Positions 10,788 through 11,630 of a stretch of DNA of 64,000 nucleotides are shown here, piece by piece (the stretch's first letter is position 1; each line of letters begins with the position of its first letter). Source of the stretch: Pedobacter planticolens (GTDB taxonomy: Bacteria; Bacteroidota; Bacteroidia; Sphingobacteriales; Sphingobacteriaceae). The notes below the pieces were generated by a model. The model was given only the letters and a program-made list of their open reading frames with translations, had not been told where the DNA came from and did no database searches. A program made the position numbers and the translations under genes. The stretch is taken from the NCBI RefSeq assembly GCF_014172375.1, contig NZ_WNXD01000001.1, positions 372,001 to 436,000 on the forward strand. The letters run 5' to 3'.

Positions 10788-11630
10788 TTAATTTGTGTAA
10801 TAATTAAGTAAATTATATATTGGTTCTTTAGTAATCGTTATTATTTTAATAGCCTGCTTTTCTGCAACTAAACGCAACCTATCCTGAAACGTTCCGGCAA
10901 CTGTACCCACAAAATGAACTTCTTCATTAGGGTGTTCTGCTGCGGTTGGTACTAGGTAAGTGTTAATGTATTTTTCAAAAGCCTGATCTATTAACTGTTC
11001 AATGTACTTATGGTTTCTATTTTCGATGTAAAAATCTAAAAAGGAACTGAGGTAGTTTTGTACATTGGGTTTTTTGTATATCCGTTCTAAAATGGACGGT
11101 CTATCTAAACTATATTTTGCTTCAAGCAGCTTAGTTAAGTCTGCAGGTAATTTTTCTTCTAAGTAATGCTTTAATATCATTCTGCCCAAATAGTTAGCAG
11201 AACCTTCATCGCCAAGTATGTAGCCTAAACCAAAGTTATTTTGTTCGGGTTGCTTACCATCAAAATAAGCACAGTTTGCGCCGCTACCTAATATACTTAC
11301 AATGCCACTTTGGTTATAACAAGCTGCAATAGATGCGCCGTATAAATCATCTTTAACTTTTATTTTGGCATTTTTAAAAAACAGACTTAAGGTTTCTGCT
11401 AAAGAGTTTTGCATGGCAACAGATGACGCACCAGCAGCAAAAACGTACAGTTTTTTAACTTTTTCTGCGTGATTAATCAGTACTACGTTTTTATTTAATA
11501 AATAAAGGATATGCTTTTGGTCGTTAAAGCAAGGATTAATGCCCGGAATAGTACATTCGGCAACTGTTTTGCCTTCGTTTGCAATTTTCCAGAAAGCACT
11601 TTTAGATCCGCTATAAACTACTGCTATCAT
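10788..11630 (-). CDS. BadF/BadG-type ATPase, N-acetylglucosamine-kinase-like, with altered phosphate-1 motif
   Basis: A protein of 280 residues, paralogous to the protein at 14211-15062. Shared marks are [26 protein letters not shown] (with the family Asp in GDEGS) and the late VGTVAG..F. The first motif differs: the paralogue has IADGGSTKTNW, while here it is [11 protein letters not shown], so the leading Asp of the ASKHA phosphate-1 loop is missing. It sits between pfkA and gapA in one operon, which argues for a role near hexose phosphate metabolism. It may be a kinase with a changed active site or a sensor; the sequence does not decide. Confidence 0.8.

Follow-up and report, generated by a model that had tools for sequence, protein, structure and literature searches.

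A sugar-kinase-like protein encoded between pfkA and gapA in Sphingobacteriaceae: a candidate pseudokinase with a changed nucleotide site and a retained sugar site

MurK and K1058, the MurNAc kinases of Tannerella forsythia (PDB 8OQW, 8OW9, 8OQK, 8OW7), are among the closest described relatives of the protein analyzed here. According to the accessible text of their structural study, the contact roles of MurK residues derive from structures with AMP-PCP and with MurNAc: ATP is contacted by G8, S9, T10, K11, I113, G115, T116, G117, G145, A195, G196, S198, P199, A202, S241, V242, Y244, and Y245, and the sugar by S9, N32, F34, F35, 66-69, 94-96, 117-119, 133-137, and D141 (PMC10465942). K1058, which carries Glu at position 6, is active, though with MurNAc its rate falls short of that of MurK by a factor of >200; the authors attribute the slowness to residues 133/134 or to a different natural substrate, and not to Glu6 (PMC10465942). 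In human NagK, Gly stands at the place of P134, and the lactyl group is kept out where residues of this region are bulky (PMC10465942). Two further solved relatives, PG1100 (1ZBS) and Q8A1P1 of Bacteroides thetaiotaomicron (1ZXO), are uncharacterised putative GlcNAc kinases with intact ATP motifs.

Bacteroidota are degraders of many plant and animal polysaccharides, and to our knowledge the tuning of glycolysis to sugar supply in this phylum is poorly known. Kinase folds have been turned to other uses in several systems. The ROK repressors NagC, Mlc, and Lmo0178 have a sugar-kinase fold that became a regulator, and yeast Gal3, a GHMP-fold protein, is a kinase-fold paralogue kept as a sensor. 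TsaB is a kinase-fold paralogue kept as a non-catalytic partner; it has a truncated C-lobe and serves tRNA modification (PMC9654439). In a survey of the open-licence literature by title and start of abstract, none of the papers listed dealt with the protein described below, and no paper was returned for a Pedobacter pfkA-gapA operon with an N-acetylglucosamine kinase. The protein is not mentioned in the accessible parts of papers on the glucose-kinase superfamily (PMC12696579), on fitness data including Pedobacter sp. GW460-11-11-14-LB5 (PMC9007349), or on MurK biochemistry (PMC5790795).

The window, a stretch of 64,000 nucleotides from Pedobacter planticolens, contains a putative glycolytic operon on the minus strand. 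The first gene, pfkA (11640-12626), codes for an ATP-dependent 6-phosphofructokinase (TIGR02482, over the cut-off), and the third, gapA (9781-10782), codes for a type I glyceraldehyde-3-phosphate dehydrogenase (TIGR01534, over the cut-off). Between them, an ORF at 10788-11630 codes for a sugar-kinase-like protein of 280 aa, the proposed pseudokinase, hereafter protein A. The gaps, 9 bases after pfkA and 5 bases before gapA, agree with the original prediction. The same order, with pfkA upstream and gapA downstream on one strand, was found in 69 of the 70 distinct fetched A loci, with gaps of at most 29 bases on the pfkA side and at most 201 bases on the gapA side (the start of one broken copy, L115, reads as 171). 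The sole exception, L142, lies in an incomplete genome (G008); gapA is present there, and pfkA has no match in the stretch covered.

Protein A matched four solved structures by phmmer, namely PG1100 (5e-38), MurK (4e-35), Q8A1P1 (8e-34), and K1058 (2e-24). No Pfam match of any kind was obtained at E ≤ 0.001. The cut-off of the BcrAD/BadFG ATPase family PF01869 (31.5 bits) is not reached by protein A, nor even by its paralogue C (26.6 bits), and protein A lacks the DxGxT phosphate-1 motif of this family. The sole NCBIfam match, NagK_SO3507 (NF046058, an equivalog), scored 29 bits against a cut-off of 370. The kinship of protein A rests on the phmmer matches to MurK and PG1100 and on the fold. 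By its sequence, protein A descends from an ASKHA-fold sugar kinase of the BadF/NagK type.

The full-length predicted fold of protein A is intact. An AlphaFold2 model built from 17 sequences had a mean pLDDT of 86.7 and aligned with K1058 (Z 31.9 over 272 residues), MurK (Z 31.3), and PG1100 (Z 30.9), the structure alignments giving 22-27% identity to MurK and K1058. Low pLDDT at 134-136 and 187-193 had been considered as a sign of a lost adenosine pocket; this was dropped, since a control model of the intact paralogue C from the same 17 sequences is also weak in these blocks (131-150 at 60, 181-200 at 62-70). The kinase-like fold of protein A spans residues 1 to 280, with no helix-turn-helix or other DNA-binding domain of the kind found in ROK repressors. 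Its model reached Z 15.8 against Lmo0178, about the level of actin and MreB, and it belongs to the BadF/NagK branch and not to the ROK one.

The original prediction that protein A has lost the phosphate-1 Asp proved correct. The former D-x-G-S-T-K motif, residues 6-11 (11598-11615, minus strand), now reads YSGSKS, so that Tyr6 occupies the place of the Asp, and T10 and K11 are changed as well. The paralogue C at 14211-15062 (minus strand), a sugar kinase of the BadF type in which the DGGSTKT motif is intact, begins MIVIADGGSTKTNW. As also predicted, protein A retains the GDEGS motif at residues 140-144 (11199-11213, minus strand), which contains D141, a sugar contact in MurK (PMC10465942) kept as Asp in 68/68 orthologues.

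A strain-specific defect, one of the outcomes named beforehand as fatal to the prediction, is ruled out. Among the fetched copies, to which the count applies, there are 69 distinct orthologues whose N-terminus is readable, and position 6 is Tyr or Phe in every one: Tyr in 63 and Phe in 4 of the 67 aligned, and Tyr in both L141 and L144. In one A copy, L115 in G113, the reading frame is interrupted close to the start. A second kinase copy in G113 is also split, which may be an assembly error. In the 86 other homologues of the alignment, position 6 is Asp in 80 and Glu in 6, and 84 each have Thr or Ser at position 10 and Lys or Arg at position 11. In contrast, D6, T10, and K11 are all three replaced in every readable A copy, and the motif becomes [YF]-S-G-[SA]-[KRNHY], with Lys or Arg at position 10 in 59/67 and Asn (6), His (1), or Tyr (1) in the rest. 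A sequencing error is likewise ruled out, since the change is common to all fetched readable orthologues, and so is misalignment at position 6, since the segment aligns without gaps and is anchored by G8, S9, and W14. In two other pfkA-linked kinases, L127 and L128 (f5, g37), the motif reads DSGATNSNW, with Asn in place of the conserved Lys11; these kinases may have taken a step of their own toward a changed ATP site.

Protein A is widespread within the family. It is matched at E ≤ 1e-60 in 228 of 251 family genomes, its own included, while 19 have a weaker best match and 4 have none. The neighbours that have names are Pedobacter species and Sphingobacterium hungaricum. An order-level search (118/121) drew only same-family genomes already among the 251 and added no breadth. 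In a draw of 395 genomes from the phylum, 11 of them from the same family, no match among those listed from outside the family exceeded 177 bits.

We then compared the nucleotide and sugar sites across an alignment of 154 distinct proteins, 4 of them from the PDB, using MurK numbering, which also holds for protein A near the N-terminus and for its D95, N119, and D141. The columns tested were the 41 conserved at ≥85% (weighted) in the 86 other homologues, and a column was counted as lost when under half of clade A (weighted) had the kinase residue. D6 was added to the nucleotide list from the DxGxT motif, which the MurK study names phosphate-1 (PMC10465942). By this count, the losses of clade A take in 7 of the 10 nucleotide-only columns (D6, T10, K11, T116, G145, A195, and S241), none of the 6 conserved sugar columns (N32, G67, D95, G117, N119, and D141), and 5 of the 25 other conserved columns. 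The Fisher p value for nucleotide-only columns against the rest was 0.0028, and 0.0067 without the clade-defining column 6; the columns are not independent, and p serves as a guide. Applied to five control clades, this count gave a single loss among the 10 nucleotide columns in B and none in C, D, the MurK group, or f2. Changes at other places do occur in these clades: C lost 3/8 sugar columns, f2 lost 2/7 sugar columns, and D lost 6/23 others. Protein A is thus distinguished by the place of change and not by its amount.

The losses are uneven. S241 is still Ser in 18/68 A copies, G145 is still Gly in 7/68, and A195 is still Ala in 5/68, while T116 is Ser in all 68, a mild change that keeps the hydroxyl. 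At position 244, where Tyr stacks on the adenine, an aromatic residue is found in 3/68 copies and a non-aromatic one in 65/68. The phosphate-loop residues G8, S9 (one Ala), and G115/G117 largely remain. In comparison, MurK and K1058 keep the phosphate-1 motif (with Asp and Glu, respectively), T10, K11, A195, S241, and Y244, whereas protein A does not.

The sugar contacts N32, G67, D95, N119, and D141 are common to MurK, K1058, and protein A. N32, G67, D95, and D141 are always kept in clade A; at position 119, 59 of the 68 copies have Asn, 8 have His, and 1 has Thr, which shows that parts of the sugar site can vary. D95 (11346-11348, minus strand), Asp in 68/68 orthologues, is the equivalent of the catalytic base of MurK, where it also holds O4 and O6 of the sugar (PMC10465942). 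Its invariance in protein A would fit sugar binding, but residual catalysis as well. At the places of the MurNAc-specific S133 and P134, protein A has F or Y in 66/68 copies and G in 68/68, and the room for the lactyl group of MurNAc is probably not kept. Glucose or GlcNAc may therefore be a likelier ligand of protein A than MurNAc. A changed sugar site was seen in a different group: in the pfkA-gapA-linked kinases of f4 (L071, L079, L089, and L095), MDDGS, MDDCS, or MDDAS replaces GDEGS, with Glu before the catalytic Asp.

Selection on protein A has been purifying. Its dN/dS was 0.043-0.084 (NG86) in 7 Pedobacter pairs, while an eighth pair, with L037, was saturated and undefined. The dS was 1.0 for the closest pair and 1.4-3.0 for the remaining ones, and YN00 returned 0.075 for the closest pair and no value for the rest, so that only the order of magnitude counts. 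The corresponding values were 0.027-0.057 for pfkA and 0.009-0.025 for paralogue C (6 pairs; the L040 row was dropped because the C query met only the A gene there). A pseudogene is ruled out by these values and by the invariant pocket residues. Protein A shows the full-length, two-lobed ASKHA fold and the sugar-site residues of the MurK-like hexosamine kinases of Bacteroidota without their nucleotide-site residues, and the sequence pattern of a pseudokinase, in which nucleotide motifs are lost across orthologues under purifying selection.

We lean towards the reading that protein A is a sugar-binding pseudokinase that acts on a partner and so matches glycolysis to sugar supply. Phosphate transfer from ATP would be gone, to judge from the residues replaced, and a sugar would sit in the old pocket, as the invariant residues suggest. 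The ligand, a hexose, an amino sugar, or possibly a hexose phosphate gripped by the new Lys/Arg10, would close the two lobes of protein A in parallel with MurK, for which sugar-induced lobe closure has been shown (PMC10465942). The closed form might then act on a partner, for which gene order, our basis here, makes PfkA or GapA of the same operon or an active kinase paralogue the most plausible candidates, and through this action glycolysis would be matched to sugar supply. A more specific version is less probable: protein A would be a dedicated non-catalytic hexose/hexose-6-phosphate sensor of Sphingobacteriaceae in the glycolytic operon, detecting sugar in the former substrate pocket, with Lys/Arg10 replacing the ATP phosphate grip and with direct control of PfkA, GapA, or an active paralogue. 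Protein A falls under the definition of none of the regulatory families tested; in its way of working it would resemble other sugar kinases that became sensors.

The original prediction had held that a GlcNAc kinase name may be wrong, and had offered a changed kinase or a hexose-level sensor in its place. The doubt about the name probably stands, because the ATP site is changed as a whole and the sugar site is kept; a changed kinase appears less likely than a pseudokinase, since the loss extends to 7 of 10 conserved positions of the nucleotide site and not to the Asp alone. The activity of K1058 with Glu6 means that loss of the Asp by itself is no proof of inactivity, and the argument lies in the joint loss. 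Annotation of the family as N-acetylglucosamine kinase by similarity would assign it a catalytic step that may not exist. If the pseudokinase reading is true, a clade-wide, operon-embedded pseudokinase would be a candidate for the control of glycolysis in Bacteroidota, and a bacterial case from the BadF/NagK branch would join the known conversions of sugar kinases to sensors.

The aligned Tyr/Phe6 proteins, together with the frame-broken L115, form one clade (FastTree, 68 rows, support 1.0; IQ-TREE, 29 of 88 rows, 100/100). The gene at 14211 had been treated as the paralogue for comparison. It is a paralogue, but not the nearest one: a third copy at G000:C2:159681 (L090), which is paralogue B, is closer (35% vs 31% identity) and belongs to the sister clade of A (99/94). 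In paralogue B, Asp6 and Lys11 are retained, and position 10 is Ser, Thr, or Tyr. This sister relationship is compatible with protein A being the inactive partner in a mixed dimer that tunes an active paralogue, B or C, much like the pairing of TsaB with TsaD. TsaB is an ASKHA paralogue with an atypical nucleotide site only (PMC9654439), MurK forms a biological dimer in its crystals (PMC10465942), and five examined genomes without protein A (G004, G005, G007, G022, and G056) also have no B-type match, the single match in each belonging to the C clade. However, this joint absence may merely reflect common ancestry or genome reduction, G140 (99% complete) has protein A and an apparent C, by place and identity, with no B-type match, and B stands apart from A behind an RND/TolC gene set. 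We therefore regard a mixed dimer as unlikely.

Paralogue B was found in odd company for a sugar kinase. In its own genome (G000:C2:155000-165000, gene 4682-5536) it follows an RND pump and a TolC-like gene after 18 bases, and by eye it lies downstream of a TolC-like ORF in L129, L131, L132, L133, and L145 and right after a response-regulator-like ORF in L129-L131 and L145. Paralogue C lies just downstream of a SusC/SusD-like gene set on the same strand (window 14211-22892, named by eye), and it was also found upstream of pfkA in other genera.

The retained catalytic residues could also mean that protein A still transfers phosphate. One such explanation is a sugar kinase with another phosphate donor, such as pyrophosphate or polyphosphate, in which the adenosine pocket was free to decay. 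The loss of the adenosine contacts next to an invariant D95 and a Ser116 present in all 68 copies would agree with this, the Lys/Arg10 of 59/67 copies could bind phosphate, and PPi is used by the acetate kinase of Entamoeba, which shares the fold superfamily (PMC5517563, PMC4390882). But D6, T10, and K11, which are probably needed for PPi too, have gone together with the adenosine contacts, and Lys/Arg10 is not fixed, being Asn in 6 copies, His in one, and Tyr in one. This explanation is rather improbable. To a similar degree we doubt that protein A is an ordinary but slow ATP-dependent hexose kinase that tolerates changes in its active site. The six conserved sugar columns, D95 included, show no loss, and slow activity is retained by K1058 with Glu6 (PMC10465942). 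Against this, positions 6, 10, and 11 are near-fixed in the 86 other homologues and all replaced in the readable A copies, and most A copies also replace G145, A195, and S241, with 65/68 having no aromatic residue at 244. The own genome, moreover, encodes proteins of the ROK family, with 4 matches spread over 3 places, and protein A need not be its hexose kinase. That protein A is a decaying remnant carried in the operon is very improbable: it is missing in some lineages (e.g., G022) and broken in G113 (L115), but the reading frame is whole in 69 of 70 distinct fetched copies, dN/dS is 0.04-0.08, the pocket residues are invariant, and the predicted fold is intact.

The link with glycolysis is probably older than the loss of the ATP site. 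Clades A and B join glycolysis-linked kinases of other Bacteroidota (f4, which we take to be Flavobacteriaceae, f7, and others) in one clade (100/95). Ten fetched loci (L071, L072, L074, L076, L079, L082, L088, L089, L095, and L104) have the order pfkA-gapA-kinase with an intact DSG[AS]TK, although pfkA is cut by the locus end in most of them, and in the f5 loci the kinase adjoins pfkA. The kinases of this kind (e.g., L071, L074, L095, and L104) share the glycolytic neighbourhood of protein A and, for those with rows in the tree, the large clade; their gene follows gapA, whereas that of protein A lies between pfkA and gapA. MurK, in comparison, is tied to cell-wall sugar recycling, and protein A is tied to glycolysis by gene order. 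As intact kinases stand beside pfkA or gapA in other Bacteroidota, the glycolytic link is probably ancestral, and the likeliest history is probably that this link came first, followed by duplication and then by loss of the ATP site.

No strong match to protein A was found in 23 of the 251 family genomes. In 7 of the 16 examined (G004, G029, G046, G058, G007, G032, and G022), pfkA touches gapA; in 8 the two genes are on different contigs, and in 1 gapA was not found. In a midpoint-rooted FastTree (support 0.65 for the A-linked side), the pfkA of G022 nests among the A-linked pfkA genes, suggesting that protein A was probably lost in G022; the pfkA genes of g5 and g8 fall outside this group. Protein A is dispensable to glycolysis as such, and a regulatory role therefore fits better than an essential step.

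A second candidate regulator is encoded next to the operon. The gene at 12751-13440 (plus strand, TTG start assumed), divergent from pfkA, codes for an NrtR/AraR-like Nudix-winged-helix transcription regulator (PF21906, 96 bits, and PF00293, both over the cut-off). The regulator gene holds this place in every A locus that extends 900 bases or more upstream, 29 of 29 with the own locus included. Its Nudix signature, compared with the one quoted in the accessible text of PMC4666351, is impaired (RILHELTGL), as is that of the arabinose-responsive AraR (PMC4666351).

An imperfect palindrome of 21 bp upstream of pfkA (12642-12662, no strand) is conserved and is a candidate operator. It was found in 9/9 aligned sequences, with one arm base changed in the window and in L033. 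Of 68 distinct regions in front of A-linked pfkA genes, 63 have a site of the pattern GTGTA-N4-7-[TG]ACAC no more than 180 bp upstream, compared with 0.07% of mononucleotide shuffles; as the pattern was drawn from the same 68 sequences and the controls were plain shuffles, this shows conservation and not an independent discovery. The site is missing in L047, L049, L053, L060, and L067. No wider regulon could be read from the own genome, where ≤3 mismatches gave 15 matches compared with 14 for the reversed-pattern control. The mismatch-free palindrome occurs once there, before pfkA, and one more place has 2 mismatches. The Nudix regulator may bind the palindrome in front of pfkA. In addition, a weak copy of the palindrome with 3 mismatches, which is background level, lies at 23134-23154 of the window, about 240 bases upstream of the SusC-like gene at 19824-22892.
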